DNA of 64,000 bases, from positions 1 through 64,000 of the forward strand of contig JBAIAA010001144.1 in NCBI GenBank assembly GCA_037893245.1, written 5' to 3'. The first letter of the stretch is position 1. The number at the start of each line of letters is the position of its first letter. The notes beneath the pieces were generated by a model. That model was not told where the DNA came from and did not search any database. It was given only the letters and a program-made list of their open reading frames with translations. The position numbers were made by a program, and so were the translations under genes. Origin of the DNA: Crossaster papposus (lineage: Eukaryota > Echinodermata > Asteroidea > Velatida > Solasteridae). Shown piece after piece: positions 19,048 through 48,774 of this stretch.

Positions 19048-19558
19048 CTAGCGGGATGCCGCGCTTCGCGCGGCACCCATTAGCTGGGTGGAATCGTAAC
19101 TTATAGATACACCTTGTTGACGTCCTAAAAACATAATGGATTGTATGACAAACAAACCGAGAAAATTTCGAGCTCACGAAAATATTTTTTTCGAGTGCAC
19201 GAAATCATTTAGTGTGCACGAAATCATTTCGAGCTCACGAAATATTTATTTCGAGTGCACGAAATGATTTCGTGGGCACGAAATGGTTTCGAGCGCACGT
19301 TTTGAAATAATCAAATGATTTCGTCACGGTGATTTGTATTCGTCAAATGTCCCTTTAGGGGCTCCGTAGGATACCATTGACTCTAAATAAAAACAATCTG
19401 CTGCGTAATGCAGTCACGTTTCTAAATTGAATATTCATATCCACGATCGCCATACAATTTGGCGACATTTTTGCACGATCAAAGGTAACATTGAGGCAAT
19501 AGCGATGACAAACAACGCCCAGGGACAAGATGGCGCATTTAACATCTTTTATAGTATA
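19048..19558 (-). mobile_element. Helitron unit 1 (3'-most, internally deleted)
   Basis: 511 bp. The terminal hairpin arms are CTAGCGGG and CCCATTAG rather than the perfect CTAGCAGG/CCTGCTAG of the others. The central ~0.9 kb is missing: sequence jumps from GCAATAGCGATGACAAACAA to CGCCCAGGGACAAGATGG. Its junction to unit 2 lacks the 5' TC (CTAG then TATACTATAAAAG). Confidence 0.9.
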
Positions 19559-21652
19559 CTAGCAGGATGCCGCGCTTCGCGCGGCACCTGCTAGCTGGGT
19601 GAAATCGTAACTTATAGATACACCTTGTTGACGTCTTAAAAACATAATGGATTGTATGACAAACAAATCGCGAAACTTAGCGAGTAGAGTACCAGCTAGA
19701 AAGTATTTCGAGCGCACGAAATTATTTCGAGCTCACGAACAGATATTCTTGGAGCGCACGAAGTCATTTCGTGGCCACGACAACATTTCGAGCTCACGAA
19801 ATAAGTTATTTTGAGTGCACGAAATAAAATACTCAAATTATTTCGTAACGGTGATTTTTATTCGTCATATGTCCCTTTAGGGGCTCCGTAGAATACCATC
19901 GACTCTGAATAACAAACAATCTTTGTAAAAATACTTCCCGACTTCCGAACTAATAATACTCAATAGGCAGTTCATCTTCGCTTGCATGCTGCCTGCGTCT
20001 CGTGATTTTTAACAGGAATCGTACGGGAAACAATACGAACCACTTCGGGATTTCTGATTTCCATCATCGTGAAAATCATGATTGAAAAAACCAACAGACC
20101 GGCCGTCTGACAGTGCGCCCTCAACTGACGTAATGCAGTCACGTTTCTAAATTGCATATTTATATCCACGATCGACATACAATTTCGCGACATTTTTGCA
20201 CGATGAACGTTAACATTTGCGCAATAGCGATTGTTTTTAGAAAGATAATGTAGTATTTAAGTATTGACAATGTGAAAGGAACATTGAGGCAATAGCGATG
20301 ACAAACAAACCGCGAAACTTAGCGAGTAGAGTACCAGCTAGAAAGTATTTCGAGCGCACGAAATTATTTCGAGCTCACGAACAGATATTCTTGGAGCGCA
20401 CGAAGTCATTTCGTGGCCACGACAACATTTCGAGCTCACGAAATAAGTTATTTTGAGTGCACGAAATAAAATACTCAAATTATTTCGTAACGGTGATTTT
20501 TATTCGTCATATGTCCCTTTAGGGGCTCCGTAGAATACCATCGACTCTGAATAACAAACAATCTTTGTAAAAATACTTCCCGACTTCCGAACTAATAATA
20601 CTCAATAGGCAGTCCATCTTTGCTTGCATGCTGCCTGCGTCTCGTGATTTTTTAACAGGAATCGTACGGGAAACAATACGAACCACTTCGGGATTTCTGA
20701 GTTTACATCATCGTGAAAATCCTGATTAAAAAACCCAACAGGCCGGCCATCTGACAGTGCGCCCTCAACTGACGTAATACAGTCACGTTTCTAAATTGCA
20801 TATTCATTTCCACCATCGCCATACAATTTCGCGACATTTTTGCGCGATCAAAGTTGAAATTGAGGCAATAGCGATATGTTTCGGAGTGTTTTCAGACAGA
20901 TAATGTTGTAATATTTAAGTATCGACGATGTGAAGCAAAGACATTTGCCCAAAAGGCAACACGAAAGGAATAAATCATTTTTTAACGTTCCCAAGCTGTG
21001 ACTGAAACGTGGTAGACGCGCACGAATTCGAAGCCGGCGCTCAACTGGTACTATGTTTACTCCGCAATAACCAAGGAAGTATAAATCGGGGCACCAGCTC
21101 AAATAACACGTGACGGGGCCGCCCAATCGCGAAAAAACAAACTCGGCACCAACTCGGCCACCGCGCAAGCAAGGCGGATACAATCAATTTGCGAAGGCTT
21201 CGCGTAACGCATGTAGCCGCCGCTTAATCGCAAACAGCCAACAATTCGGCAACCGAGTTACGGTTGTACGATTTCGGGAAGGCTTCGGCCCGAACTCCGG
21301 GCAAGGACAATGCAAAAATAACGCAATAGTTCACGCAAAAAGGCCCGCAGACATCGACAGGCAATCGAAAAGCGATTACGCGTTTATCGGTAACGTCCGT
21401 TTCTTTTATATCTCACTTTCAAATCTGATTCCCCGGGGGATTCCCCGTCGCGAACGATCCGGCACCCCGCCGCACCGACGCCGGCGGCACACGCGCGCGG
21501 CGACGAGTCGCCCGACCAAAAGCCAACATGGCGCCAACCACGCGCCAAGATGGCGCGGCCCTGTGTTCCAAGATGGCGCGGCCCTGCGTTCCAAGATGGC
21601 GGCGCCCAGGGACAAGATGGCGAATTTAACATCTTTTATAGTATAGATAAGA
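19559..21652 (-). mobile_element. Helitron unit 2 with 642 bp internal duplication
   Basis: 2094 bp. The TGACAAACAAA..GAGGCAATAGCGA segment occurs twice, at about 19657 and 20299. The 5' boundary reads CTAG then TCTTATCTATACTATAAAAG, a six-base longer start than usual. Confidence 0.9.
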
Positions 21653-23070
21653 CTAGCAGGATGCCGCGCTTCGCGCGGCACCTGCTAGCTGGGTGAAATC
21701 GTAACTTATAGATACACCTTGTTGACGTCTTAAAAACATAATGGATTGTATGACAAACAAATTGCGAAACTTAGCGAGTAGAGTACCAGCTAGAAAGTAT
21801 TTCGAGCGCGCGAAATTATTTCGAGCTCACGAACAGATGTTCTTGGAGCGCACGAAGTCATTTCGTGGCCACGACAACATTTCGAGTTCACGAAATAAGT
21901 TATTTTGAGTGCACGAAATAAAATACTCAAATTATTTCGTAACGGTGATTTTTATTCGTCATATGTCCCTTTAGGGGCTCCGTAGAATACCATCGACTCT
22001 GAATAACAAACAATCTTTGTAAAAATACTTCCCGACTTCCGAACTAATAATACTCAATAGGCAGTCCATCTTCGCTTGCATGCTGCCTGCGTCTCGTGAT
22101 TTTTTAACAGGAATCGTACGGGGAACAATACGAACCACTTCGGGATTTCTGAGTTTACATCATCGTGAAAATCCTGATTAAAAAACCCAACAGGCCGGCC
22201 ATCTGACAGTGCGCCCTCAACTGACGTAATGCAGTCACGTTTCTAAATTGCATCATATCCACCATCGCCATACAATTTCGCGACATTTTTGCGCGATCAA
22301 AGTTGAAATTGAGGCAATAGCGATATGTTTCGGAGTGTTTTGAGACAGATAATGTTGTAATATTTAAGTATCGACAATGTGAAGCAACGAAATTTGCCCA
22401 AAAGGCAACACGAAAGGAATAAATCATTTTTAAACGTTCCAAGCCTGTGACTGCAATGTGGTCGACGCGCACGAAATTCGAAGCCGAAAATGAAGCTGGC
22501 GCTCAAACTCCGCAATAACCAAGGGAGTATAAAGCTCAAATAACACGGGACGGGCCGCCCAATCGCGAACAACAAACTCGGCACCAACTCGGCCACCGCG
22601 CAAGCAAGGCGGATACAATTAATTTGCGAAGGCTTCGCGTAACGCATGTAGCCGCCGCTTAATCGCAAACAGCCAACAATTCGGTAACCGAGTTACGGTA
22701 GTACGATTTCGGGAAGGCTTCGGCCCGAACTCCGGGCAAGGACAATGCAAAAATAACGCAATAGTTCACGCAAAAAGGCCCACAGACATCAACAGGCAAT
22801 TGAAAAGCGATTACGTGTTTATCGGTAACGTCCGTTTCTTTTAAATCTCACCACGGACGAATACGATTTTTTTTTAAATCTTATTCCCCGGGGGATTCCC
22901 CGTCGCGAACGATCCGGCACCCCGCCGCACCGACGCCGGCGGCACACACGCGCGGCGACGAGTCGCCCGACCAAAAGCCAACATGGCGCCAACCATGCGC
23001 CAAGATGGCGCGGCCCTGTGTTCCAAGATGGCGGCGCCCAGGGACAATTTAACATCTTTTATAGTATAGA
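21653..23070 (-). mobile_element. Helitron unit 3
   Basis: 1418 bp, standard structure. A shortened 5' region (CCCAGGGACAATTTAACATC) lacks one AAGATGGCG copy. Confidence 0.9.
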
Positions 23071-24562
23071 CTAGCAGGATGCCGCGCTTCGCGCGGCACC
23101 TGCTAGCTGGGTGAAATCGTAACTTATAGATACACCTTGTTGACGTCTTAAAAACACAATGGATTGTATGACAAACAAATCGCGAAACTTAGCGAGTAGA
23201 GTACCAGCTAGAAAGTATTTCGAGCGCACGAAATTATTTCGAGCTCACGATCGAACAGATATTCTTGGAGCGCAAGAAGTCATTTCGTGGCCACGAAAAC
23301 ATTTCGAGCTCACGAAATAAGTTATTTTGACTGCACGAAATAAAATACTCAAATTATTTCGTAACGGTGATTTGTATTCGTCATATGTCCCTTTAGGGGC
23401 TCCGTAGAATACCATCGACTCTGAATAACAAACAATCTTTGTAAAAATACTTCCCGACTTCCGAACTAATAATACTCAATAGGCAGTCCATCTTCGCTTG
23501 CATGCTGCCTGCGTCTCGTGATTTTTTAACAGGAATCGTACGGGAAACAATACGAACCACTTCGGGATTTCTGATTTACATCATCGTGAAAATCGTGATT
23601 AAAAAACCCAACAGGCCGGCCACCTGACAGTGCGCCCTCAACTGACGTAATGCAGTCACGTTTCTAAATTGCATATTCATATCCACCATCGCCATACAAT
23701 TTCGCGACATTTTTGCGCGATCAAAGTTGAAATTGAGGCAATAGCGATATGTTTTGGAGTGTTTTGAGACAGATAATGTTGTAATATTTAAGTATCGACA
23801 ATGTGAAGCAAAGAAATTTGCCCAAAAGGCAACACGAAAGGAATAAATCATTTTTTAACGTTCCCAAGCTGTGACTGAAACGTGGTAGACGCGCCGAATT
23901 CGAACCCGAAAACGAAGCCGGAGCTCAACTGGTACTATGTTTACTCCGCAGTAAACCAAGGAAGTATAAATCGGGGCACCAGCTCAAATAACACGTGACG
24001 GGGCCGCCCAATGGCGAATAACAAACTCGGCACCAACTCGGCCACCGCGCAAGCAAGGCAGATACAATTAATTTGCGAAGGCTTCGCGTAACGCATGTAG
24101 CCGCCGCTTAATCGCAAACAGCCAACAATTTGGCAACCGAGTTACGGTAGTACGATTTCGGGAAGGCTTCGGCCCGAACTCCGGGCAAGGACAATGTAAA
24201 AATAACGCAATAGTTCACGCAAAAAGGCCCACAGACATCAACAGGCAATCGAAAAGCGATTACGCGTTTATCGGTAACGTCCGTTTCTTTTAAATCTCAC
24301 TTCGGACGAATACGATTTTTTGTTAAATCTTATTCCCCGGGGGATTCCCCGGGGATTCCCCGTAGCGAACGATCCGGCACCCCGCCGCACCGACGCCGGC
24401 CGCACACACGCGCGGCGACGAGTCGCCCGACCAAAAGCCAACATGGCGCCAACCACGCGCCAAGATGGCGCGGCCCTGTGTTCCAAGATGGCGCGGCCCT
24501 GCGTTCCAAGATGGCGGCGCCCAGGGACAAGATGGCGCATTTGTCATCTTTTATAGTATAGA
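23071..24562 (-). mobile_element. Helitron unit 4
   Basis: 1492 bp, standard structure with both termini. Confidence 0.9.
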
Positions 24563-26033
24563 CTAGCAGGATGCCGCGCTTCGCGCGGCACCTGCTAGCT
24601 GGGTGAAATCGTAACTTATAGATACACCTTGTGGACGTCTTAAAAACATAATGGATTGTATGACAAACAAATCGCGAAACTTAGCGAGTAGAGTACCAGC
24701 TAGAAAGTATTTCGAGCGCACGAAATTATTTCGAGCTCACGAACAGATATTCTTGGAGCGCACAAAGTCATTTCGTGGCCACGAAAACATTTCGAGATCA
24801 CGAAATAAGTTATTTTGAGTGCACGAAATAAAATACTCAAATTATTTTGTAACGGTGATTTTTATTCGTCATATGTCCCTTTAGGGGCTCCGTAGAATAC
24901 CATCGACTCTGAATAACCATGGAGCTATGAAGAGAAGCTCCATGGAATAACAAACAATCTTTGTAAAAATACTTCCCGACTTCCTAACTAATAATACTCA
25001 ATAGGCAGTTCATCTTTGCTTGCATGCTGCCTGCGTCTCGTGATTTTTTAACAGGAATCGTACGGGAAACAATACGAACCACTTCGGGATTTCTGAGTTC
25101 AGTTTACATCATCGTGAAAATCCTGATTAAAAAACCCAACAGACCGGCCATCTGACAGTGCGCCCTCAACTGACGTAATGCAGTCACGTTTCTAAATTGC
25201 ATATTCATATCCACCATCGCCATACAATTTCGCGACTTTTTTGCACGATCAAAGTTGAAATTGAGGCAATAGCGATATGTTTCGGAGTGTTTTGAGACAG
25301 ATAATGTTGTAATATTTAAGTATCGACAATGTGATGCAAAGAAATTTGCCCAAAAGGCAACACGAAAGGAATAAATCATTTTTTAACGTTCCAAGCCTGT
25401 GACTGCAATGTGGTGGACGCGCACGAAATTCGAAGCCGAAAACGAAGCTGGCGCTCAAACTCCGCAATAACCAAGGGAGTATAAAGCTCAAATAACACGT
25501 GACGGGGCCGCCCAATGGCGAATAACAAACTCGGCACCAACTCGGCCACCGCGCGAGCAAGGCGATACAATTAATTTGCGAAGGCTTCGCGTAACGCATG
25601 TAGCCGCCGCTTAATCGCAAACAGCCAACAATTCGGTAACCGAGTTACGGTATACGATTTCGGGAAGGCTTCGGCCCGAACTCCGGGCAAGGACAATGCA
25701 AAAATAACGCAATAGTTTACGCAAAAAGGCCCGCAGACATCAACAGGCAATCGAAAAGCGATTACGCGTTTATCGGTAACGTCCGTTTCTCCTAAATCTC
25801 ACCACTTTTTTTATTAAAAATCTTATTCCCCGGGGGATTCGCCGTCGCGAACGGTCCGGCACCCCGCCGCACCGACGCCGGCGGCACACACGCGCGGCGA
25901 CGAGTCGCCCGACCAAAAGCGCCGCGCCTCTCCAACATGGCGCCAACCACGCGCCAAGATGGCGCGGCCCTGTGTTCCAAGATGGCGGCGCCCAGGGACA
26001 AGATGGCGCATTTAACATCTTTTATAGTATAGA
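24563..26033 (-). mobile_element. Helitron unit 5, carrying a 27 bp palindromic insertion
   Basis: 1471 bp, standard ends. An insertion near 24919 is absent from all other units (see separate entry). Confidence 0.9.
24919..24945. mobile_element. 27 bp palindromic insertion with 7 bp direct duplication
   Basis: CATGGAGCT..AGCTCCATG, perfect 9 bp arms around a 9 bp loop, lies between two copies of GAATAAC. All other units read CTGAATAACAAACAATC uninterrupted, so the empty site is seen many times over. Confidence 0.8.
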
Positions 26034-27505
26034 CTAGCAGGATGCCGCGCTTCGCGCGGCACCTGCTAGCTGGGTGAAATCGTAACTTATAGATACACCT
26101 TGTTGACGTCTTAAAAACATAATGGATTGTATGACAAACAAATCGCGAAACTTAGCGAGTAGAGTACCAGCTAGAAAGTATTTCGAGCGCACGAAATTAT
26201 TTCGAGCTCACGAACAGATATTCTTGGAGCGCACGAAGTCATTTCGTGGCCACGACAACATTTCGAGCTCACGAAATAAGTTATTTTGAGTGCACGAAAT
26301 AAAATACTCAAATTATTTCGTAACGGTGATTTGTATTCGTCATATGTCCCTTTAGGGGCTCCGTAGAATACCATCGACTCTGAATAACAAACAATCTTTG
26401 TAAAAATACTTCCCGACTTCCGAACTAATAATACTCAATAGGCAGTTCATCTTTGGCTTGCATGCTGCCTGCGTCTCGTGATTTTTTAACAGGAATCGTA
26501 CGGGAAACAATACGAACCACTTCGGGACTTCTGAGTTTACATCATCGTGAAAATCCTGATTAAAAAAACCAACAGGCCGGCCATCTGACAGTGCGCCCTC
26601 AACTGACGTAATGCAGTCACGTTTCTAAATTGCATATTCATATCCACCATCGCCATACAATTTCGCGACATTTTTGCACGATCAAAGTTGAAATTGAGGC
26701 AATAGCGATATGTTTCGGAGTGTTTTGAGACAGATAATGTTGTAATATTTAAGTATCGACAATGTGAAGCAAAGAAATTTGCCCAAAAAGCAACACGAAG
26801 GGAATAAATCATTTGTTAACGTTCCCAACCTGTGACTGAAACGTGGTAGACGCGCACGAATTCGTACCCGAAAACGAAGCCGGAACTCAACTGGTATTAT
26901 GTTTACTCCGCAATAACCAAGGAAGTATAAATCGGGGCACCAGCTCAAATAACACGTGACGGGGCCGCCCAATCGCGAAAAAAACAAACTCGGCACCAAC
27001 TCGGCCACCGCGCAAGCAAGGCGGATACAATCAATTTGCGAAGGCTTCGCGTAACGCATGTAGCCGCCGCTTAATCGCAAACAGCCAACAATTCGGCAAC
27101 CGAGTTACGGTAGTACGATTTCGGGAAGGCTTCGGCCCGAACTCCGGGCAAGGACAATGCAAAAATAACGCAATAGTTCACGCAAAAAGGCCCGCAGACA
27201 TCGACAGGCAATCGAAAAGCGATTACGCGTTTATCGGTAACGTCCGTTTCTTTTAAATCTCACTTTTAAATCTTATTCCCCGGGGGATTTCCCGGGGGAT
27301 TCCCCGTCGCGAACGATCCGGCACCCCGCCGCACCGACGCCGGCCGCACACGCGCGCGGCGACGAGTCGCCCGACCAAAAGCCAAGATGGCGCCAACCAC
27401 GCGCCAAGATGGCGCGGCCCTGTGTTTCCAAGATGGCGCGGCCCTGCGTTCCAAGATGGCGGCGCCCAGGGACAAGATGGCGAATTTAACATCTTTTATA
27501 GTATA
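26034..27505 (-). mobile_element. Helitron unit 6
   Basis: About 1472 bp. The 3' (CTAG) end is normal. At its 5' side it is fused to the interior of unit 7 instead of to a CTAG terminus. Confidence 0.85.
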
Positions 27506-28596
27506 GATACTTCCCGACTTCCGAACTAATAATACTCAATAGGCAGTCCATCTTCGCTTGCATGCTGCCTGCGTCTCGTGATTTTTTAACAGGAATCGTA
27601 CGGGAAACCATACGAACCACTTCGGGATTTCTGAGTTTACATCATCGTGAAAATCCTGATTAAAAAACCCAACAGGCCGGACATAATTGTGAGAGTGCGC
27701 CCTCAACTGACGTAATGCAGTCACGTTTCTAAATTGCATATTCATATCCACCATACCATCGCCATACAATTTCGCGACATTTTTGCACGATCAAAGTTGA
27801 AATTGAGGCAATAGCGATATGTTTCGGAGTGTTTTGAGACAGATAATGTTGTAATATTTAAGTATCGACAATGTGAAGCAAAGAAATTTGCCCAAAAGGC
27901 AACACGAAAGGAATAAATCATTTTTTAACGTTCCAAGCCTGTGACTGCAATGTGGTCGACGCGCACGAAATTCGAAGAAGAAAATGAAGCTGGCGCTCAA
28001 ACTCCGCAATAACCAAGGGAGTATAAAGCTCAAATAACACGGGACGGGCCGCCCAATCGCGAACAACAAACTCGGCACCAACTCGGCCACCGCGCAAGCA
28101 AGGCGGATACAATCAATTTGCGAAGGCTTCGCGTAACGCATGTAGCCGCCGCTTAATCGCAAACAGCCAACAATTCGGCAACCGAGTTACGGTAGTACGA
28201 TTTCGGGAAGGCTTCGGCCCGAACTCCGGGCAAGGACATTGCAAAAATAACGCAATAGTTCACGCAAAAAGGCCCACAGACATCGACAGGCAATCGAAAA
28301 GCGATTACGCGTTTATCGGTAACGTCCGTTTCTTTTAAATCTCACCTCGGACGAATACGATTTTTTTAAAAATCTTATTCCCCGGGGGATTCCCCGTCGC
28401 GAACGGTCCGGCACCCCGCCGCACCGACGCCGGAGGCACACGCGCGCGGCGACGAGTCGCCCGACCAAAAGCCAACATGGCGCCAACCACGCGCCAAGAT
28501 GGCGCGGCCCTGTGTTCCAAGATGGCGCGGCCCTGCGTTCCAAGATGGCGGCGCCCAGGGACAAGATGGCGCATTTAACATCTTTTATAGTATAGA
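27506..28596 (-). mobile_element. Helitron unit 7, 3'-truncated
   Basis: About 1091 bp. It lacks the hairpin/CTAG end and the CACGAAAT block. The fusion reads GTATAGATACTTCCCGACTT, where both parents share ATA, consistent with deletion at microhomology. Confidence 0.85.
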
Positions 28597-29970
28597 CTAG
28601 CAGGATGCCGCGCTTCGCGCGGCACCTGCTAGCTGGGTTAAATCGTAACTTATAGATACACCTTGCTGACGTCTTAAAAACATAATGGATTGTATGACAA
28701 ACAAATCGCGAAACTTAGCGAGTAGAGTACCAGCTAGAAAGTATTTCGAGCGCACGAAATTATTTCGAGCGCACGAACAGATATTCTTGGAGCGCACGAA
28801 GTCATTTCGTGGCCACGACAACATTTCGAGCTCACGAAATAAGTTATTTTGAGTGCACGAAATAAAATACTCAAATTATTTCGTAACGGTGATTTTTATT
28901 CGTCATATGTCCCTTTAGGGGCTCCGTAGAATACCATCGACTCTGAATAACAAACAATCTTTGTAAAAATACTTCCCGACTTCCAAACTAATAATACTCA
29001 ATAGGCAGTTCATCTTTGCTACCACTTCGGGATTTCTGAGTTTACATCATCGTGAAAATCCTGATTAAAAAACCCAACAGGCCGGCCATCTGACAGTGCG
29101 CCCTCAACTGACGTAATGCAGTCACGTTTCAAAATTGCATATTCATATCCACCATCGCCATACAATTTCGCGACATTTGTGCACGATCAAAGTTGAAATT
29201 GAGGCAATAGCGATATGTTTCGGAGTGTTTTGAGACAGATAATGTTGTAATATTTAAGTATCGACAATGTGAAGCAAAGAAATTTGCCCAAAAGGCAACA
29301 CGAAAGGAATAAATCATTTTTTAACGTTCCAAGCCTGTGACTGCAATGTGGTCGACGCGCACGAAATTCGAAGCCGAAAATGAAGCTGGCGCTCAAACTC
29401 CGCAATAACCAAGGGAGTATAAAGCTCAAATAACACGTGACGGGGCCGCCCAATGGCGAATAACAAACTCGGCACCAACTCGGCCACCGCGCAAGCAAGG
29501 CGGATACAATTAATTTGCGAAGGCTTCGCGTAACGCATGTAGCCGCCGCTTAATCGCAAACAGCCAACAATTTGGCAACCGAGTTACGGTAGTACGATTT
29601 CGGGAAGGCTTCGGCCCGAACTCCGGGCAAGGACAATGCAAAAATAACGCAATAGTTCACGCAAAAAGGCCCACAGACATCGACAGGCAATCGAAAAGCG
29701 ATTACGCGTTTATCGGTAACGTCCGTTTCTTTTAAATCTCACTTCGGACGAATACGATTTTTTTTTAAATCTTATTCCCCGGGGGATTCCCCGTCGCGAA
29801 CGACCCGGCACCTCGCCGCACCGACGCCGGCGGCACGCACGCGCGGCGACGAGTCGCCCGACCAAAAGCCAACATGGCGCCAACCACGCGCCAAGATGGC
29901 GCGGCCCTGCGTTCCAAGATGGCGGCGCCCAGGGACAAGATGGCGAATTTAACATCTTTTATAGTATAGA
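28597..29970 (-). mobile_element. Helitron unit 8
   Basis: 1374 bp, both ends present. About 60-70 bp is deleted near 29020, where GTTCATCTTTGCT joins ACCACTTCGGG directly. Confidence 0.9.
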
Positions 29971-31701
29971 CTAGCAGGATGCCGCGCCTCGCGCGGCACC
30001 TGCTAGCTGGGTGAAATCGTAACTTATAGATACACCTTGTTGACGTCTTAAAAACATAATGGATTGTATGACAAACAAATCGCGAAACTTAGCGAGTAGA
30101 GTACCAGCTAGAAAGTATTTCGAGCGCACGAAATTATTTCGAGCTCACGAACAGATATTCTTGGAGCGCACGAAGTCATTTCGTGGCCACGACAACATTT
30201 CGAGCTCACGAAATAAGTTATTTTGAGTGCACGAAATAAAATACTCAAATTATTTCGTAACGGTGATTTGTATTCGTCATATGTCCCTTTAGGGGCTCTG
30301 TAGAATACCATCGACTCTGAATAACAAACAATCTTTGTAAAAATACTTCCCGACTTCCGAACTAATAATACTCAATAGGCAGTTCATCTTTGCTTGCATG
30401 CTGCCTGCGTCTCGTGATTTTTTAACATGAATCGTACGGGAAACAATACGAACCACTTCGGGGTTTCTGATTTACGTCGTTACGATTGAAAAAACCAACA
30501 GACCGGCCGTCTGACAGTGCGCCCTCAACTGACGTAAGGCAGTCCCGTTTCTAAATTGAATATTCATATCCACGATAGGCCTTACAATTTCGCGACATTT
30601 TTCAACGATAAAAGTTAAAATTGAGGCAATAGCGATACGTTTCGGAGTGTTTTTAGAGAGATAATGTTGTAATATTTAAGTATTGACAATGTGAAAGGAA
30701 GAAATTTTGCCAGAAGGCAACACGAAAGGAATAAATCATTGTTTTTACGTTCCAAAACTGTGACTACAAAATGGTCGACGCGCAGGAATTCGGAGGCAAA
30801 GCCGAAGCCGAAACGTAGTCACGTTTCTAAATTGCATATTCATATCCACCATCGCCATACAATTTCGCGACATTTTTGCACGATCAAAGTTGAAATTGAG
30901 GCAATAGCGATATGTTTCGGAGTGTTTTGAGACAGATAATGTTGTAATATTTAAGTATCGACAATGTGAAGCAACGAAATTTGCCCAAAAGGCAACACGA
31001 AAGGAATAAATCATTTTTTAACGTTCCAAGCCTGTGACTGCAATGTGGTCGACGCGCACGAAATTCAAAGCCGAAAACGAAGCTGGCGCTCAAACTCCGC
31101 AATAACCAATGGAGTATAAAGGTCAAATAACACGGGACGGGCCGCCCAATCGCGAACAACAAACTCGGCACCAACTCGGCCACCGCGCAAGCAAGGCGGA
31201 TACAATTAATTTGCGAAGGCTTCGCGTAACGCATGTAGCCGCCGCTTAATCGCAAATGGCCAACAATTCGGCAACCGAGTTACGGCAGTACGATTTCGGG
31301 AAGGCTTCGGCCCGAACTCCGGTCAAGGACAATGCAAAAATAACGCAATAGTTCGCGCAAAAAGGTCCGCAGACATCGACAGGCAATCGAAAAGCGATTA
31401 CGCGTTTATCGGTAACGTCCGTTTCTTTTAAATCTCACCACGGACGAATACGATTTTTTTTAAATCTTATTCCCCGGGGGATTCCCCGGGGGATTCCCCG
31501 TCGCGAACGGTCCGGCACCCCGCCGCACCGACGCCGGCGGCACACGCGCGCGGCGACAAGTCGCCCGACCAAAAGCCAACATGGCGCCAACCACGCGCCA
31601 AGATGGCGCGGCCCTGTGTTTCCAAGATGGCGGCGCCCTGCGTTCCAAGATGGCGGCGCCCAGGGACAAGATGGCGCATTTGTCATCTTTTATAGTATAG
31701 A
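29971..31701 (-). mobile_element. Helitron unit 9 (1731 bp class)
   Basis: 1731 bp. It contains an extra ~281 bp diverged internal duplication (the CACGTTTCTAAATTG..GAAACG segment twice). Its hairpin loop region reads CCTCG instead of CTTCG. Confidence 0.92.
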
Positions 31702-36894: not shown

Positions 36895-38626
36895 CTAGCA
36901 GGATGCCGCGCTTCGCGCGGCACCTGCTAGCTGGGTGAAATCGTAACTTATAGATACACCTTGTTGACGTCTTAAAAACACAATGGATTGTATGACAAAC
37001 AAATCGCGAAACTTAACGAGTAGAGTACCAGCTAGAAAGTATTTCGAGCGCACGAAATTATTTCGAGCTCACGAACAGATATTCTTGGAGCGCACGAAGT
37101 CATTTCGTGGCCACGACAACATTTCGAGCTCACGAAATAAGTTATTTTGAGTGCACGAAATAAAATACTCAAATTATTTCGTAACGGTGATTTGTATTCG
37201 TCATATGTCCCTTTAGGGGCTCCGTAGAATACCATCGACTCTGAATAACAAACAATCTTTGTAAAAATACTTCCCGACTTCCGAACTAATAATACTCAAT
37301 AGGCAGTTCATCTTTGCTTGCATGCTGCCTGCGTCTCGTGATTTTTTAACATGAATCGTACGGGAAACAATACGAACCACTTCGGGGTTTCTGATTTACG
37401 TCGTTACGATTGAAAAAAACCAACAGACCGGCCGTCTGACAGTGCGCCCTCAACTGACGTAAGGCAGTCCCGTTTCTAAATTGAATATTCATATCCACGA
37501 TAGGCCTTACAATTTCGCGACATTTTTCAACGATAAAAGTTAAAATTGAGGCAATAGCGATACGTTTCGGAGTGTTTTTAGAGAGATAATGTTGTAATAT
37601 TTAAGTATTGACAATGTGAAAGGAAGAAATTTTGCCAGAAGGCAACACGAAAGGAATAAATCATTGTTTTTACGTTCCAAAACTGTGACTACAAAATGGT
37701 CGACGCGCAGGAATTCGGAGGCAAAGCCGAAGCCGAAACGTAGTCACGTTTCTAAATTGCATATTCATATCCACCATCGCCATACAATTTCGCGACATTT
37801 TTGCACGATCAAAGTTGAAATTGAGGCAATAGCGATATGTTTCGGAGTGTTTTGAGACAGATAATGTTGTAATATTTAAGTATCGACAATGTGAAGCAAC
37901 GAAATTTGCCCAAAAGGCAACACGAAAGGAATAAATCATTTTTTAACGTTCCAAGCCTGTGACTGCAATGTGGTCGACGCGCACGAAATTCAAAGCCGAA
38001 AACGAAGCTGGCGCTCAAACTCCGCAATAACCAATGGAGTATAAAGGTCAAATAACACGGGACGGGCCGCCCAATCGCGAACAACAAACTCGGCACCAAC
38101 TCGGCCACCGCGCAAGCAAGGCGGATACAATTAATTTGCGAAGGCTTCGCGTAACGCATGTAGCCGCCGCTTAATCGCAAACGGCCAACAATTCGGCAAC
38201 CGAGTTACGGCAGTACGATTTCGGGAAGGCTTCGGCCCGAACTCCGGTCAAGGACAATGCAAAAATAACGCAATAGTTCGCGCAAAAAGGCCCGCAGACA
38301 TCGACAGGCAATCGAAAAGCGATTACGCGTTTATCGGTAACGTCCGTTTCTTTTAAATCTCACCACGGACGAATACGATTTTTTTAAAATCTTATTCCCC
38401 GGGGGATTCCCCGGGGGATTCCCCGTCGCGAACGGTCCGGCACCCCGCCGCACCGACGCCGGCGGCACACGCGCGCGGCGACAAGTCGCCCGACCAAAAG
38501 CCAACATGGCGCCAACCACGCGCCAAGATGGCGCGGCCCTGTGTTTCCAAGATGGCGGCGCCCTGCGTTCCAAGATGGCGGCGCCCAGGGACAAGATGGC
38601 GCATTTGTCATCTTTTATAGTATAGA
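36895..38626 (-). mobile_element. Helitron unit 13 (1732 bp)
   Basis: Same class as units 9-12, with scattered differences, such as AACTTAACGAG, CGCAAACGGCC and one extra A in the GAAAAAAACC run. Confidence 0.92.
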
Positions 38627-40994
38627 CTAGCAGGATGCCGCGCTTCGCGCGGCACCTGCTAGCTGGGAGAAATCGTAACTTATAGATACACCTTGTTGAC
38701 GTCTTAAAAACATAATGGATTGTATTCTCACGGTCGGAGGCTGTTCCACCTATTGCACACGCCGTCGGGCAAAGGGGTAGCCCTCCATTCAATTTGTACA
38801 GGGAATTACGTGTTTTCCATATTTTTTTACAGCAATAAAAACATGCATACTTTCTTTTCCGGTGTATCGTGTGAGATTTTGTTACTTCATAAAACAATGA
38901 AATTTGGAAATATTTCGGTGTAGTGTTTAATAGATATTAGACAATAATTAATTATTTAGATTTTTTTCACATAGACCACAACGCTATTTATTGCTATTCA
39001 TTCCCCTTTGAGTCCAGAGGGGGTGATAACTAACAGCCACCACTGACCAATCAGAGACAAGAAACAGGGCCCGGTGACGTCATGCCGACCGCGAGAATGA
39101 CAAACAAATCGCGAAACTTAGCGAGTAGAGTACCAGCTAGAAAGTATTTCGAGCGCACGAAATTATTTCGAGCTCACGAACAGATATTCTTGGAGCGCAC
39201 GAAGTCATTTCGTGGCCACGAAAACATTTCGAGCTCATGAAATAAGTTATTTTGAGTGCACGAAATAAAATACTCAAATTATTTCGTAACGGTGATTTGT
39301 ATTCGTCATACGTCCCTTAATTTAGGGGCTCCGTAGAATACCATCGACTCTGAATAACAAACAATCTTTGTAAAAATACTTCCCGACTTTCGAACTTATA
39401 ATACTCAATAGGCAGTCCATCTTCGCTTGCATGCCTGCGTCTCGTGATTTTTTAACATGAATCGTACGGGAAACAATACAAACCACTTCGGGATTTCTGA
39501 TTTACGTCGTCACGATTGAAAAAACCAACAGACCGGCCGTATGACAGTGCGCCCTCAACTGACGTAAGGCAGTCACGTTTCTAAATTGAATATTCATATC
39601 CACGATAGGCCATACAATTTCGCGACATTTTTCCACGATAAAAGTTAAAATTGAGGCAATAGCGATATGTTTCGGAGTGTTTTTAGAGAGATAATGTTGT
39701 AATATTTAAGTATTGACAATGTGAAAGGAAGAAATTTTCCCAGAAGGCAACACGAAAGGAATAAATCATTGTTTTTACGTTCCAAAACTGTGACTACAAA
39801 ATGGTCGACACGCAGGAATTCGGAGGCAAAGCCGAAGCCGAAACGTAGTCACGTTTCTAAATTGCATATTCATATCCACCATCGCGATACAATTTCGCGA
39901 CATTTTACCACGATAAAAGTTAAAATTGAGGCAATAGCGATATGTTTCGGAGTGTTTTTAGAGAGATAATGTTGTAATATTTAAGTATTGACAATGTGAA
40001 AGGAAGAAATTTTCCCAGAAGGCAACACGAAAGGAATAAATCATTGTTTTTACGTTCCAAAACTGTGACTACAAAATGGTCGACACGCAGGAATTCGGAG
40101 GCAAAGCCGAAGCCGAAACGTAGTCACGTTTCTAAATTGCATATTCATATCCACCATCGCCATACAATTTCGCGACATTTTTGCACGATCAAAGTTGAAA
40201 TTGAGGCAATAGCGATATGTTTCGGAGTGTTTTGAGACAGATAATGTTGTAATATTTAAGTATCGACAATGTGAAGCAACGAAATTTGCCCAAAACTCCA
40301 AAAGGCAACACGAAAGGAATAAATCATTTTTTAACGTTCCAAGCCTGTGACTGCAATGTGGCCGACGCGCACGAAATTCAAAGCCGAAAATGAAGCTGGC
40401 GCTCAAACTCCGCAATAACCAATGGAGTATAAAGGTCAAATAACACGGGACCAATCGCGAACAACAAACTCGGCACCAACTCGGCCACCGCGCGAGCAAG
40501 GCGGGTACAATCAATTTGCGAAGGCTTCGCGTAACGCATGCAGCCGCCGCTCAATCGCAAACGGCCAACAATTCGGCAACCGAGTTACGGTAGTACGATT
40601 TCGGGAAGGCTTCGGCCCGAACTCCGGGCAAGGACAATGCAAAAATAACGCAATAGTTCACGCAAAAAGGCCCGCAGACATCGACAGGCAATCGAAAAGC
40701 GATTACGCGTTTATCGGTAACGTCCGTTTCTTTTAAATCTCACCACGGACGAATACGATTTTTTTCCCCAGGGGATTCCCCGGGGGATTCCCCGTCGCGA
40801 ACGGTCCGGCACCCCGCCGCACCGACGCCGGCGGCACACGCGCGCGGCGAGGAGTCGCCCGACCAAAAGCCAACATGGCGCCAACCACGCGCCAAGATGG
40901 CGCGGCCCTGTGTTCCAAGATGGCGGCGCCCTGCGTTCCAAGATGGCGGCGCCCAGGGACAAGATGGCGCATTTGTCATCTTTTATAGTATATA
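38627..40994 (-). mobile_element. Helitron unit 14, expanded and interrupted
   Basis: 2368 bp. It carries a 371 bp TIR insertion near its 3' end and an additional copy of the ~275-280 bp internal duplication (starts near 39560, 39841 and 40116). Confidence 0.9.
38726..39096. mobile_element. 371 bp TIR insertion inside Helitron unit 14
   Basis: The ends are TCTCACGGTCGG and, inverted, TCTCGCGGTCGG, with AT on both sides. Every other unit reads GGATTGTATGACAAAC at this point, so the insertion is exactly bounded by comparison. The interior is noncoding. Confidence 0.85.
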
Positions 40995-42731
40995 CTAGCA
41001 GGATGCCGCGCTTCGCGCGGCACCTGCTAGCTGGGTGAAATCGTAACTTATAGATACACCTTGTTGACGTCTTAAAAACACAATGGATTGTATGACAAAC
41101 AAATCGCGAAACTTAGCGAGTAGAGTACCAGCTAGAAAGTATTTCGAGCGCACGAAATTATTTCGAGCTCACGAACAGATATTCTTGGAGCGCACGAAGT
41201 CATTTCGTGGCCACGACAACATTTCGAGCTCACGAAATAAGTTATTTTGAGTGCACGAAATAAAATACTCAAATTATTTCGTAACGGTGATTTGTATTCG
41301 TCATATGTCCCTTTAGGGGCTCCGTAGAATACCATCGACTCTGAATAACAAACAATCTTTGTAAAAATACTTCCCGACTTCCGAACTAATAATACTCAAT
41401 AGGCAGTTCATCTTTGCTTGCATGCTGCCTGCGTCTCGTGATTTTTTAACATGAATCGTACGGGAAACAATACGAACCACTTCGGGGTTTCTGATTTACG
41501 TCGTTACGATTGAAAAAAAACAACAGACCGGCCGTCTGACAGTGCGCCCTCAACTGACGTAAGGCAGTCCCGTTTCTAAATTGAATATTCATATCCACGA
41601 TAGGCCTTACAATTTCGCGACATTTTTCAACGATAAAAGTTAAAATTGAGGCAATAGCGATACGTTTCGGAGTGTTTTTAGAGAGATAATGTTGTAATAT
41701 TTAAGTATTGACAATGTGAAAGGAAGAAATTTTGCCAGAAGGCAACACGAAAGGAATAAATCATTGTTTTTACGTTCCAAAACTGTGACTACAAAATGGT
41801 CGACGCGCAGGAATTCGGAGGCAAAGCCGAAGCCGAAACGTAGTCACGTTTCTAAATTGCATATTCATATCCACCATCGCCATACAATTTCGCGACATTT
41901 TTGCACGATCAAAGTTGAAATTGAGGCAATAGCGATATGTTTCGGAGTGTTTTGAGACAGATAATGTTGTAATATTTAAGTATCGACAATGTGAAGCAAC
42001 GAAATTTGCCCAAAAGGCAACACGAAAGGAATAAATCATTTTTTAACGTTCCAAGCCTGTGCCTGCAATGTGGTCGACGCGCACGAAATTCAAAGCCGAA
42101 AACGAAGCTGGCGCTCAAACTTCGCAATAACCAATGGAGTATAAAGGTCAAATAACACGGGACGGGCCGCCCAATCGCGAACAACAAACTCGGCACCAAC
42201 TCGGCCACCGCGCAAGCAAGGCGGATACAATTAATTTGCGAAGGCTTCGCGTAACGCATGTAGCCGCCGCTTAATCGCAAACGGCCAACAATTCGGCAAC
42301 CGAGTTACGGCAGTACGATTTCGGGAAGGCTTCGGCCCGAACTCCGGTCAAGGACAATGCAAAAATAACGCAATAGTTCGCGCAAAAAGGCCCGCAGACA
42401 TCGACAGGCAATCGAAAAGCGATTACGCGTTTATCGGTAACGTCGGTTTCTTTTAAATCTCACCACGGACGAATACGATTTTTTTAAAATCTTATTCCCC
42501 GGGGGATTCCCCGGGGGATTCCCCGTCGCGAACGGTCCGGCACCCCGCCGCACCGACGCCGGCGGCACACGTGCGCGGCGACAAGTCGCCCGACCAAAAG
42601 CCAAGATGGCGCCAACCACGCGCCAAGATGGCGCGGCCCTGCGTTTCCAAGATGGCGCGGCCCTGCGTTCCAAGATGGCGGCGCCCAGGGACAAGATGGC
42701 GAATTTAACATCTTTTATAGTATAGATAAGA
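40995..42731 (-). mobile_element. Helitron unit 15 (1737 bp)
   Basis: 1.73 kb class. The 5' boundary carries the longer TCTTATCTATAC start, as in unit 2. Confidence 0.92.
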
Positions 42732-44463
42732 CTAGCAGGATGCCGCGCTTCGCGCGGCACCTGCTAGCTGGGTGAAATCGTAACTTATAGATACACCTTG
42801 TTGACGTCTTAAAAACACAATGGATTGTATGACAAACAAATCGCGAAACTTAGCGAGTAGAGTACCAGCTAGAAAGTATTTCGAGCGCACGAAATTATTT
42901 CGAGCTCACGAACAGATATTCTTGGAGCGCACGAAGTCATTTCGTGGCCACGACAACATTTCGAGCTCACGAAATAAGTTATTTTGAGTGCACGAAATAA
43001 AATACTCAAATTATTTCGTAACGGTGATTTGTATTCGTCATATGTCCCTTTAGGGGCTCCGTAGAATACCATCGACTCTGAATAACAAACAATCTTTGTA
43101 AAAATACTTCCCGACTTCCGAACTAATAATACTCAATAGGCAGTTCATCTTTGCTTGCATGCTGCCTGCGTCTCGTGATTTTTTAACATGAATCGTACGG
43201 GAAACAATACGAACCACTTCGGGGTTTCTGATTTACGTCGTTACGATTGAAAAAAACCAACAGACCGGCCGTCTGACAGTGCGCCCTCAACTGACGTAAG
43301 GCAGTCCCGTTTCTAAATTGAATATTCATATCCACGATAGGCCTTACAATTTCGCGACATTTTTCAACGATAAAAGTTAAAATTGAGGCAATAGCGATAC
43401 GTTTCGGAGTGTTTTTAGAGAGATAATGTTGTAATATTTAAGTATTGACAATGTGAAAGGAAGAAATTTTGCCAGAAGGCAACACGAAAGGAATAAATCA
43501 TTGTTTTTACGTTCCAAAACTGTGACTACAAAATGGTCGACGCGCAGGAATTCGGAGGCAAAGCCGAAGCCGAAACGTAGTCACGTTTCTAAATTGCATA
43601 TTCATATCCACCATCGCCATACAATTTCGCGACATTTTTGCACGATCAAAGTTGAAATTGAGGCAATAGCGATATGTTTCGGAGTGTTTTGAGACAGATA
43701 ATGTTGTAATATTTAAGTATCGGCAATGTGAAGCAACGAAATTTGCCCAAAAGGCAACACGAAAGGAATAAATAATTTTTTAACGTTCCAAGCCTGTGAC
43801 TGCAATGTGGTCGACGCGCACAAAATTCAAAGCCGAAAACGAAGCTGGCGCTCAAACTCCGCAATAACCAATGGAGTATAAAGGTCAAATAACACGGGAC
43901 GGGCCGCCCAATCGCGAACAACAAACTCGGCACCAACTCGGCCACCGCGCAAGCAAGGCGGATACAATTAATTTGCGAAGGCTTCGCGTAACGCATGTAG
44001 CCGCCGCTTAATCGCAAACGGCCAACAATTCGGCAACCGAGTTACGGCAGTACGATTTCGGGAAGGCTTCGGCCCGAACTCCGGTCAAGGACAATGCAAA
44101 AATAACGCAATAGTTCGCGCAAAAAGGCCCGCAGACATCGACAGGCAATCGAAAAGCGATTACGCGTTTATCGGTAACGTCCGTTTCTTTTAAATCTCAC
44201 CACGGACGAATACGATTTTTTTTAAATCTTATTCCCCGGGGGATTCCCCGGGGGATTCCCCGTCGCGAACGGTCCGGCACCCCGCCGCACCGACGCCGGC
44301 GGCACACGTGCGCGGCGACAAGTCGCCCGACCAAAAGCCAACATGGCGCCAACCACGCGCCAAGATGGCGCGGCCCTGTGTTTCCAAGATGGCGCGGCCC
44401 TGCGTTCCAAGATGGCGGCGCCCAGGGACAAGATGGCGAATTTAACATCTTTTATAGTATAGA
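42732..44463 (-). mobile_element. Helitron unit 16 (1732 bp)
   Basis: 1.73 kb class with the internal ~281 bp duplication; both ends standard. Confidence 0.92.
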
Positions 44464-45898
44464 CTAGCAGGATGCCGCGCTTCGCGCGGCACCTGCTAGC
44501 TGGGTGAAATCGTAACTTATAGATACACCTTGTTGACGTCTTAAAAACATAATGGATTGTATGACAAACAAATCGCGAAACTTAGCGAGTAGAGTACCAG
44601 CTAGAAAGTATTTCGAGCGCACGAAATTATTTCGAGCTCACGAACAGATATTCTTGGAGCGCAAGAAGTCATTTCGTGGCCACGACAACATTTCGAGCTC
44701 ACGAAATAAGTTATTTTGAGTGCACGAAACAAAATACTCAAATTATTTCGTAACGGTGATTTTTATTCGTCATATGTCCCTTTAGGGGCTCCGTAGAATA
44801 CCATCGAGTCTGAATAACAAACAATCTTTGTAAAAATACTTCCCGACTTTCGAACTAATAATACTCAATAGGCAGTCCATCTTCGCTTGCATGCTGCCTG
44901 CGTCTCGTTATTTTTTAACAGGAATCGTACGGGAAACAATACGAACCACTTCGGGATTTCTGAGTTTACATCATCGTGAAAATCCTGATTAAAAAACCCA
45001 ACAGGCCGGCCATCTGACAGTGCGCCCTCAACTGACGTAATGCAGTCACGTTTCTAATTTGCATATTCATATCCACCATCGCCCTACAATTTCGCGACAT
45101 TTTTGCGGGATCAAAGTTGAAATTGAGGCAATAGCGATATGTTTCGGAGTGTTTTTAGACACATAATGTTGTAATATTTAAGTATCGACAATGTGAAGTA
45201 AAGAAATTTGCCCAAAAGGCAACACGAAAGGAATAAATCATTTTTTAACGTTCCCAACCTGTGACTGAAACGTGGTAGACGCGCACGAATTCGAAGCCGG
45301 CGCTCAACTGGTATTATTTTTACTCCGCAATAACCAAGGAAGTATAAATCGGGGCACCAGCTCAAATAACACGTGACGGGGCCGCCCAATCGCGAAAAAA
45401 CAAACTCGGCACCAACTCGGCCACCGCGCAAGCAAGGCGGATACAATCAATTTGCGAAGGCTTCGCGTAACGCATGTAGCCGCCGCTTAATCGCAAACAG
45501 CCAACAATTCGGTAACCGAGTTACGGTAGTACGATTTCGGGAAGGCTTCGGCCCGAACTCCGGGCAAGGACAATGCAAAAATAACGCAATAGTTCACGCA
45601 AAAAGGCCCACAGACATCGACAGGCAATCGAAAAGCGATTACGCGTTTATCGGTAACGTCCGTTTCTTTTAAATCTCACTTCGGACGAATACGTAAATCT
45701 TATTCCCCGGGGGATTCCCCGTCGCGAACGATCCGGCACCCCGCCGCACCGACGCCGGCGGCACGCACGCGCGGCGAGGAGTCGCCCGACCAAAAGCCAA
45801 CATGGCGCCAACCACGCGCCAAGATGGCGCGGCCCTGCGTTCCAAGATGGCGGCGCCCAGGGACAAGATGGCGAATTTAACATCTTTTATAGTATAGA
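44464..45898 (-). mobile_element. Helitron unit 17
   Basis: 1435 bp short class, most like unit 2's second half and unit 6. Confidence 0.92.
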
Positions 45899-47324
45899 CT
45901 AGCAGGATGCCGCGCTTCGCGCGGCACCTGCTAGCTGGGTGAAATCGTAACTTATAGATACACCTTGTTGACGTCTTAAAAACATAATGGATTGTATGAC
46001 AAACAAATCGCGAAACTTAGCGAGTAGAGTACCAGCTAGAAAGTATTTCGAGCGCACGAAATTATTTCGAGCTCACGAACAGATATTCTTGGAGCGCACG
46101 AAGTCATTTCGTGGCCACGACAACATTTCGAGCTCACGAAATAAGTTATTTTGAGTGCACGAAATAAAATACTCAAATTATTTCGTAACGGTGATTTGTA
46201 TTCGTCATATGTCCCTTTAGGGGCTCCGTAGAATACCATCGACTCTGAATAACAAACAATCTTTGTAAAAATACTTCCCGACTTCCGAACTAATAATACT
46301 CAATAGGCAGTTTATCTTTGCTTGCATGCTGCCTGCGTCTCGTGATTTTTTAACATGAATCGTACGGGAAACAATACGAACCACTTCGGGGTTTCTGATT
46401 TACGTCGTTACGATTGAAAAAAACCAACAGACCGGCCGTCTGACAGTGCGCCCTCAACTGACGTAAGGCAGTCCCGTTTCTAAATTGAATATTCATATCC
46501 ACGATAGGCCATACAATTTCGCGACAGTTTTGCACGATCAAAGTTGAAATTGAGGCAATAGCGATATGTTTCGGAGTGTTTTGAGACAGATAATGTTGTA
46601 ATATTTAAGTATCGACAATGTGAAGCAACGAAATTTGCCCAAAAGGCAACACGAAAGGAATAAATCATTTTTTAACGTTCCAAGCCTGTGACTGCAATGT
46701 GGTCGACGCGCACGAAATTCAAAGCCGAAAACGAAGCTGGCGCTCAAACTCCGCAATAACCAATGGAGTATAAAGGTCAAATAACACGGGACGGGCCGCC
46801 CAATCGCGAACAACAAACTCGGCACCAACTCGGCCACCGCGCAAGCAAGGCGGATACAATTAATTTGCGAAGGCTTCGCGTAACGCATGTAGCCGCCGCT
46901 TAATCGCAAACGGCCAACAATTCGGCAACCGAGTTACGGCAGTACGATTTCGGGAAGGCTTCGGCCCGAACTCCGGTCAAGGACAATGCAAAAATAACGC
47001 AATAGTTCGCGCAAAAAGGCCCGCAGACATCGACAGGCAATCGAAAAGCGATTACGCGTTTATCGGTAACGTCCGTTTCTTTTAAATCTCACTTTTAAAT
47101 CTTATTCCCCGGGGGATTCCCCGTCGCGAACGGTCCGGCACCCCGCCGCACCGACGCCGGCCGCACACGCGCGCGGCGACGAGTCGCCCGACCAAAAGCC
47201 AAGATGGCGCCAACCACGCGCCAAGATGGCGCGGCCCTGTGTTTCCAAGATGGCGCGGCCCTGCGTTCCAAGATGGCGGCGCCCAGGGACAAGATGGCGA
47301 ATTTAACATCTTTTATAGTATAGA
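45899..47324 (-). mobile_element. Helitron unit 18
   Basis: 1426 bp. The middle reads as a hybrid. It begins like the 1.73 kb class (TTCATATCCACGATAGGCC) and then continues as the second copy (GCACGATCAAAGTTG), as if the internal duplication had collapsed by recombination. Confidence 0.88.
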
Positions 47325-48774
47325 CTAGCAGGATGCCGCGCTTCGCGCGGCACCTGCTAGCTGGGTGAAATCGTAACTTATAGATACACCTTGTTGACGT
47401 CTTAAAAACATAATGGATTGTATGACAAACAAATCGCGAAACTTAGCGAGTAGAGTACCAGCTAGAAAGTATTTCGAGCGCACGAAATTATTTCGAGCTC
47501 ACGAACAGATATTCTTGGAGCGCAAGAAGTCATTTCGTGGCCACGACAACATTTCGAGCTCACGAAATAAGTTATTTTGAGTGCACGAAATAAAATACTC
47601 AAATTATTTCGTAACGGTGATTTTTATTCGTCATATGTCCCTTTAGGGGCTCCGTAGAAGTACCATCGAGTCTGAATAACGAACAATCTTTGTAAAAATA
47701 CTTCCCGACTTTCCAACTAATAATACTCAATAGGCAGTCCATCTTCGCTTGCATGCTGCCTGCGTCTCGTGATTTTTAACAGGAATCGTACGGGAAACAA
47801 TACGAACGAACCACTTCGGGATTTCTGTTTTACATCATCGTGAAAATCGTGATTAAAAAACCCAACAGGCCGGCCGTCTGACAGTGCGCCCTCAACAGAC
47901 GTAATGCAGTCACGTTTCTAATTTGCATATTCATATCCACCATCGCCATACAATTTCGCGACATTTTTGCACGATCAAAGTTGAAATTGAGGCAATAGCG
48001 ATATGTTTCGGAGTGTTTTGAGACAGATAATGTTGTAATATTTAAGTATCGACAATGTGAAGCAACGAAATTTGCCCAAAAGGCAACACGAAAGGAATAA
48101 ATCATTTTTTAACGTTCCAAGCCTGTGACTGCAATGTGGTCGACGCGCACGAAATTCAAAGCCGAAAACGAAGCTGGCGCTCAAACTCCGCAATAACCAA
48201 TGGAGTATAAAGGTCAAATAACACGGGACGGGGCCGCCCAATCGCGAACAACAAACTCGGCACCAACTCGGCCACCGCGCGAGCAAGGCGGATACAATCA
48301 ATTTGCGAAGGCTTCGCGTAACGCATGTAGCCGCCGCTTAATCGCAAACGGCCAACAATTCGGCGACCGAGTTACGGTAGTACGATTTCGGGAAGGCTTC
48401 GGCCCGAACTCCGGGCAAGGACAATGCAAAAATAACGCAATAGTTCACGCAAAAAGGCCCGCAGACATCGACAGGCAATCGAAAAGCGATTACGCGTTTA
48501 TCGGTAACGTCCGTTTCTTTTAAATCTCACTTTTAAATCTTATTCCCCGGGGGATTCCCCGGGGGATTCCCCGTCGCGAACGGTCCGGCACCCCGCCGCA
48601 CCGACGCCGGCGGCACACGCGCGCGGCGAGGAGTCGCCCGACCAAAAGCCAACATGGCGCCAACCACGCGCCAAGATGGCGCGGCCCTGTGTTTCCAAGA
48701 TGGCGGCGCCCTGCGTTCCAAGATGGCGGCGCCCAGGGACAAGATGGCGCATTTGTCATCTTTTATAGTATAGA
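47325..48774 (-). mobile_element. Helitron unit 19 (5'-most)
   Basis: 1450 bp. Its 5' TC end at 48774 is the outer boundary of the array and is preceded by A on the minus strand. It ends 83 bp before the RecQ-like start codon. Confidence 0.92.

Follow-up and report, generated by a model that had tools for sequence, protein, structure and literature searches.

Head-to-tail Helitron arrays in Crossaster papposus, probably built mainly by repeated insertion at the 5' ends of resident copies

Introduction

The origin of tandem Helitrons, whether by read-through or by successive insertion, has hitherto been argued from few cases, as judged from the open-access portions of the papers cited here, on which all of the following comparisons draw. 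We analysed a 64,000-nucleotide stretch of Crossaster papposus DNA (contig JBAIAA010001144.1, positions 1 to 64,000, referred to below as the window) in which 19 non-autonomous Helitron units stand head to tail. Repeated insertion at the 5' end of resident copies was probably the main route by which the array was built, with later local duplication. The closest described case comes from maize, where two Helitrons lie adjacent and head to tail; the authors propose successive insertion, and their proposed target includes an AT made of the host A and the 5' T of the resident element (PMC2267711). The maize dimer shares with the present locus a CTAG|TC junction, which there lies between unrelated Helitrons. 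It is, however, one dimer; the genome studied here has 699 exact junctions, its array in the window comprises 19 units, and there are nested insertions bounded by two scars. In Fusarium, Helitrons with several 5' termini and one 3' terminus were attributed to self-insertion followed by composite transposition (PMC5148889). That model fits the 5' stubs described below, but the Fusarium elements have Helitron2-like termini and duplicated 5' pieces typically shorter than 200 bp, in contrast to the long perfect arrays found here.

Tandem Helitron arrays are also common to bats (Pritham and Feschotte 2007), plant centromeres (Xiong 2016) and the present genome, and in the former two they have been explained by read-through or by loss of the 3' terminator (PMC2267711, PMC5876387, PMC12628747, PMC4067079). 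Many plant arrays are described as rows of truncated units in which several 5' ends go with a single 3' end, whereas 18 of the 19 units in the window keep the CTAG 3' end. McGurk and Barbash, as cited in PMC12628747, ascribed dimers of transposable elements to insertion-site preference. The Drosophila dimers resemble the arrays studied here in that tandem copies arise by repeated insertion at a preferred site and may seed a satellite; that case covers transposable elements generally, while the site favoured here appears to be the 5' end of the element itself. Self-insertion therefore has precedents in maize and Fusarium, and what is new here is the scale and the paired scars. We came across no comparable genome-wide example in the open-access literature searched, although one may exist in print. 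With hundreds of junctions in one genome, subfamilies that can be told apart, single copies and nested scars in matched pairs, the question of origin becomes testable.

Array structure and insertion scars

The array spans positions 19048-48774, and its position, the number of its units and their head-to-tail order agree with an earlier sequence-only reading of this DNA. All units lie on the minus strand; within the array they begin with 5' TCTATAC and end with 3' CTAG and a GC-rich hairpin, and the array as a whole is flanked by A on the right (5' side) and T on the left (3' side). Thirteen of the 18 internal junctions read exactly CTAG|TCTATAC, and this 11-mer occurs 13 times in the window compared with about 0.04 occurrences predicted from base composition on both strands. 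The units, 511-2368 bp in length, are 92-100% identical to one another, except for the diverged U19 (77-92%), and appear mosaic. U8, U9 and U10 are identical in sequence, and U11 is one base off.

The claim that units join without filler thus held at 13 junctions and failed at five (U4/U5, U5/U6, U13/U14, U17/U18 and U18/U19). At U4/U5 and U17/U18, 5 bp (TCTTA) stand ahead of TCTATAC, while the U5/U6 and U18/U19 junctions read CTAG|TATATAC and CTAG|TATAC, respectively. Because the aberrant 5' ends of U6 and U19 each follow a unit preceded by filler, they fit insertion of U5 close to the 5' end of U6 and of U18 close to that of U19; the alternative for these two ends is one substitution and one deletion. 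The U13/U14 junction is of the nested type: it has no CTAG, the start of U14 is preceded by A, and the break point corresponds to GGGAAGTA|TTTTTAC in intact units, which is an A|T site. The rest of U13 was looked for downstream of U14 and was not found. A/T flanks are consequently not limited to the outermost ends of the array, contrary to what had been stated.

A search of the genome for further junctions, suggested along with the original description, was carried out on 1.02 Gb in 1841 contigs, in which the window is contig C1143; all genome-wide counts are of exact matches. The CTAG|TCTATAC-type junction was found 699 times, versus 0 for the reversed-pattern control. Exact 18-base 5' ends numbered 1066, with 376 preceded by A (array fronts, stubs and single copies together, so that the figure does not give the number of arrays) and 690 by another base, which was G in 97 of the 100 listed. 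There were 1119 exact GCGCGGCATCCTGCTAG (CCTGCTAG-type) 3' ends, and 699 of these led straight into TCTATAC. A comparison of host-flanked CCCGCTAG and CCTGCTAG ends (3/5 versus 10/104, Fisher P 0.012) was set aside as biased, since selection of the stretches by a CCT junction pattern raises the number of CCT ends counted as tandem. Three A-preceded 5' ends on one strand, spaced by 1994 and 1998 bp, were seen at C90:1162867-1166877.

Short filler separated CTAG from TCTATAC at 38 junctions and was mostly a 5' piece of a unit (TCTA 11, TCTATACTATAA 9, TCTTA 3, TCT 3, others 12). At another type of junction, seen 40 times, CTAG was followed by a unit without its first bases (TACTATAAAAG 25, eight of them on C549; TATACTATAAAAG 14; other 1). 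Both scars bound a single unit at loci L029, L030 and L031, which were fetched because of paired scars in the search lists and which read CTAG|TCTA|unit|TACTATAAAAG, the unit being inserted at TCTA|TAC of another unit. Family copies do insert among the first few bases of resident units and leave matched scars. Across the three inserted units the ordinary TCTA|TAC 5' end is restored with no duplication. The inserted units differ by 1.9-4.2% and the host remainders by 2.8-4.6%, so the three loci look like separate events. In the stretches chosen blind to scars, together with the window, six scars lie near a 5' end (L010 at 1304; L014 at 2217 and 7205; L018 at 4344; before U5 and before U18) and two insertions lie elsewhere in a unit (U14; L021 at 5131, in an antisense unit), although the three units checked contain 102-128 AT dinucleotides each. 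Stubs without remainders could have formed in the way suggested for Fusarium or through recombination of neighbouring copies.

Stacks of TCTA and TCT precede array or element fronts at L014 789, L023 172, L024 3598, L025 550 and L036 122, and may be either 5' stubs or the result of microsatellite slippage.

Relationships among units of different loci

Twenty stretches around listed junctions were fetched and, together with the window, yielded 83 units that were extracted and aligned; the set is made up of stretches whose recognised start and end lie 300-2600 bp from each other (U13 is one of those omitted). The closest relative lay in another locus for 65 of the 83 units by alignment and for 68 by BLAST score. 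Mean divergence was 4.4% within loci (263 pairs) and 4.9% between loci (3140 pairs). Adjacent units were not closer than other pairs of the same locus (medians 3.7% versus 3.8%), and just 8 of 61 adjacent pairs differed by less than 1%. Units of one array fall into different length classes, and units of approximately 1730 bp that are nearly identical to U4, U5 and U7-U11 of the window were found on several contigs. A single copy with A...T flanks, L035, differs by 0.3-0.8% from units of the window, L009, L011, L015/16, L018, L020, L026/27 and L028. With near relatives spread over contigs and represented by a single copy, the arrays are mixtures. The homogenisation of units within an array that is expected of a satellite is limited to local blocks of near-identical units, such as U8-U11 in the window and the units in L026/27.

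Origin of the arrays

The host A and the first T of a resident element together make up an A|T site, and an element that inserts into it leaves CTAG|TC junctions with one A...T pair at the outer ends. The sequence-only reading had considered nested insertion unlikely on the grounds that CTAG|TC offers no A/T target, and this objection falls with the host A in place. Insertion at host A|TC would produce A|TC...CTAG|TC...CTAG|T and regenerate the target site. From the insertions at TCTA|TAC we infer that the same preference, acting at position 0 (host A|TC), yields the perfect CTAG|TC junctions. A RepHel nuclease that cleaves flank|TC to start transposition would probably also use the flank|TC of a resident copy as target, and the substrate arriving at the resident 5' end would be another copy or its CTAG|TC circle. 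This chemistry is proposed because Helraiser has been reported to cleave at flank|TC, to use AT targets and to form CTAG|TC circles (PMC4778049, PMC5876387). The transposase may accordingly be drawn to resident 5' ends. Later unequal exchange and deletion between near-identical units would duplicate blocks such as U8-U11, delete scar partners and make mosaic units.

Several observations weigh against serial insertion at resident 5' ends. Insertion at position 0 was not seen directly, and a single such junction looks identical to read-through. The scar pattern searches (filler and missing first bases) covered the region near the 5' end only and are insufficient on their own to establish that insertions are concentrated in this region. 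The required target enrichment is very large, and we know of no tethering factor. The nearest relative lay in the same locus for 18 of the 83 units, compared with about 6 expected with random partners (arithmetic from the pair counts). Ordered pairs common to several loci exceeded chance at loose thresholds, as some transfer of blocks would give: 11 versus 6.5 expected at 1% (P 0.18), 23 versus 10.3 at 1.5% (P 0.04) and 39 versus 17.7 at 2% (P 0.004). Serial addition at the host A leads one to expect younger units toward the 5' end, but this polarity was weak, with a permutation P of 0.025 over 19 arrays and 0.40 without the window (0.038 and 0.64, respectively, by a second age measure). Young units also stand inside arrays beside older ones, which needs insertion at G|T or reshuffling.

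Insertion at G|T would follow if the transposase preferred any 5' end of the resident family, including array-internal copies preceded by CTAG and not by A, so that the family homes onto itself; we put this forward tentatively, as a possibility that is rather less likely to be true than false. Were it true, tandem Helitrons would not require read-through, and a perfect CTAG|TC junction would not in itself prove rolling-circle concatemers. The stacks of 5' stubs (TCTA/TCT repeats at fronts) would then record earlier insertions and act as seeds of microsatellites, and self-homing would lead directly from a transposon to a satellite-like array.

The explanation originally offered for the array was rolling-circle read-through, in which termination at the 3' hairpin is missed and concatemers are inserted as arrays at one A/T site. 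Such read-through would fit the perfect CTAG|TC junctions and the excess of shared ordered pairs at loose thresholds; it has been measured for Helraiser, where approximately 11.7% of events capture flank (PMC4778049), and tandem arrays of bat and silkworm have been attributed to bypassed termination (PMC4067079). Concatemers of a single donor should, however, start identical, and the rarity of adjacent pairs less than 1% apart, the varied length classes within arrays and the closer affinity of most units to units elsewhere do not bear this out. Read-through also does not produce the TCTA and TAC scars. We regard it as unlikely to be the main origin; read-through of mixed arrays may be a minor route.

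Growth of the whole array by unequal crossing-over from one initial dimer, in the manner of a satellite, appears improbable. The identity of U8-U10 and near-identity of U11, the near-identical units in L026/27 and the repeated 3201-3202-bp spacing on C549 speak for it, as does the finding that, over the full set of 18 aligned units, identity declines with separation in the window array (Mantel P 0.01). Without U8-U11, however, the effect of distance is weaker (P 0.06), among the nine units of the older group there is none (P 0.43), and as a sole origin the process fails on the closer relatives that most sampled units have at other loci. The proposal that the array grew by unequal exchange was thus right for some of the growth, since such exchange explains local blocks such as U8-U10, and not for the origin of the whole. 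The spacing on C549 was observed at 106209-131885, where eight 3' remainders are separated by 3201-3202 bp in five of seven intervals; this is a higher-order array, probably formed by unequal exchange.

Homologous recombination of circular Helitron intermediates with resident copies would likewise add a unit with a perfect CTAG|TC junction. Helraiser circles with a CTAG|TC junction exist (PMC5876387), and the mosaic look of the window units is in keeping with the idea. A single crossover, though, would leave chimeric units around a young junction, whereas in L015/16 and in L026/27 a whole unit is young from TC to CTAG and the adjoining 200 bases on both sides are older; this border comparison was clear in only a few of 19 rows, as many upstream 200-base stretches differed by 3 or fewer and did not discriminate. 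Nor does recombination of circles account for the nested scars, and we consider it very improbable. On the relationships among units, single-donor read-through, satellite-like growth from a dimer and recombination of circles were each rejected as the main origin, and each may contribute. A misassembled array or copy number is hardly credible, since most window units are several percent apart and the junctions recur on many contigs, although our analysis was made from the assembly alone and U8-U10 are exact copies, where assemblers are least reliable.

Element identity, coordinates and neighbouring sequences

The array units represent a canonical non-autonomous family of the Helitron1 type, and both the Helitron identity and the A/T insertion proposed at the outset were borne out by the termini, the hairpin and the outer A...T flanks. 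The ends, TCTATAC...CTAG, agree with the canonical 5' TC and 3' CTRR, and the hairpin core (GCCGCGC-GAA-GCGCGGC) stops 10 nt from the end, where one located approximately 10-12 nt before the 3' end is expected. For an internal unit, the folding energy of the 3' end as single-stranded DNA is -20.1 kcal/mol (z = -6.4), the stem continuing into the terminal CTAG; the 3' end of U19 folds more weakly (-14.2 kcal/mol, z = -3.5) and leaves the terminus unpaired. Insertion takes place between A and T without target duplication. All 15 host-side 3' flanks start with T, and A precedes TC in six of seven array fronts; the latter count is restricted to fronts selected without an A-bearing pattern and free of a preceding stub or unit (L033-L038 were left out because they were picked with an A-initial pattern, and others because they lie behind stubs or within units). 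Membership of Helentron/Helitron2 was rejected, as the target is A|T and not T|T. Self-comparison of one unit (U8) gave no inverted pair between the 5' and 3' ends. At L013 7991, the CTAG that closes a unit lies upstream of the usual one, within the hairpin's 5' arm, and TCTATAC comes next, which suggests alternative termination.

Table 1. Coordinates of the array units and related features in the window
Feature	Position	Strand	Description
U1	47325..48774	-	1450 bp, 5'-most; host A precedes its TC
U2	45899..47324	-	1426 bp
U3	44464..45898	-	1435 bp
U4	42732..44463	-	1732 bp; 8/1732 bases off from the single copy L035 on another contig
TCTTA stub	42727..42731	-	Between the CTAG of U4 and the TC of U5
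U5	40995..42726	-	1732 bp; putative insertion near the 5' end of U6
U6	38627..40994	-	2368 bp, more diverged; 5' end TATATAC; additional 275-bp repeat and 372-bp insert
U7	36895..38626	-	1732 bp
U8-U11	29971..36894	-	Four 1731-bp units; recent local duplication or assembly copy number
U12	28597..29970	-	1374 bp
U13	27508..28596	-	1089 bp, 3'-truncated at GGGAAGTA, adjoins U14
U14	26034..27507	-	1474 bp; begins at an A|T site within U13
U15	24563..26033	-	Array unit
U16	23071..24562	-	Array unit
U17	21653..23070	-	Array unit
TCTTA stub	21648..21652	-	Between U17 and U18
U18	19559..21647	-	3' region in two copies; putative insertion near the 5' end of U19
U19	19048..19558	-	3'-most, most diverged; 5' TATAC; CCCGCTAG 3' end, then host T
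U19 3' terminal hairpin and CTAG	19048..19084	-	Internal units have a similar but longer hairpin

The genome was also searched with the PF14214 (Rep) profile, which gave 150 scored matches among 273 candidates. On the minus strand of C17, a related 5' end (TCTATACTATTAAT) at 883866, a Rep match at 878786-878247 and a CCCGCTAG 3' end at 870530-870507 follow one another in this order. This 5' end stands directly after the CTAG of array L014, and the span to the 3' end measures 13.4 kb. The same related 5' end lies 6.1 kb upstream of a Rep match on C245. No such 5' end was found just upstream of the other eight of the ten best Rep matches, among the 100 places listed of 105. A tblastn comparison with the longest open frames of the Rep loci L039-L048 gave nothing at 1e-5 in L001-L038 or in the window, so that the stretches covered contained no match to a RepHel. 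The autonomous partner is therefore only partly traced, with C17 as a candidate on account of its position. A second, larger class of PF14214 matches in the genome, scoring about 124-131 bits and in many cases lying in open frames longer than 3000 aa, apparently belongs to another Helitron-like family.

The 372-bp insert in U6 (window 38725-39096) resembles a miniature inverted-repeat transposable element, with inverted ends TCTCGCGGTCGG and CCGACCGTGAGA and an apparent AT duplication. The flanks of the array in the window encode helicase C-terminal and RecQ zinc-binding domains (50356-51744, plus strand), DUF6589 with a weak C2H2 zinc finger (57592-58593, minus strand) and a fragment of a Tc3-type transposase (5119-5583, minus strand).

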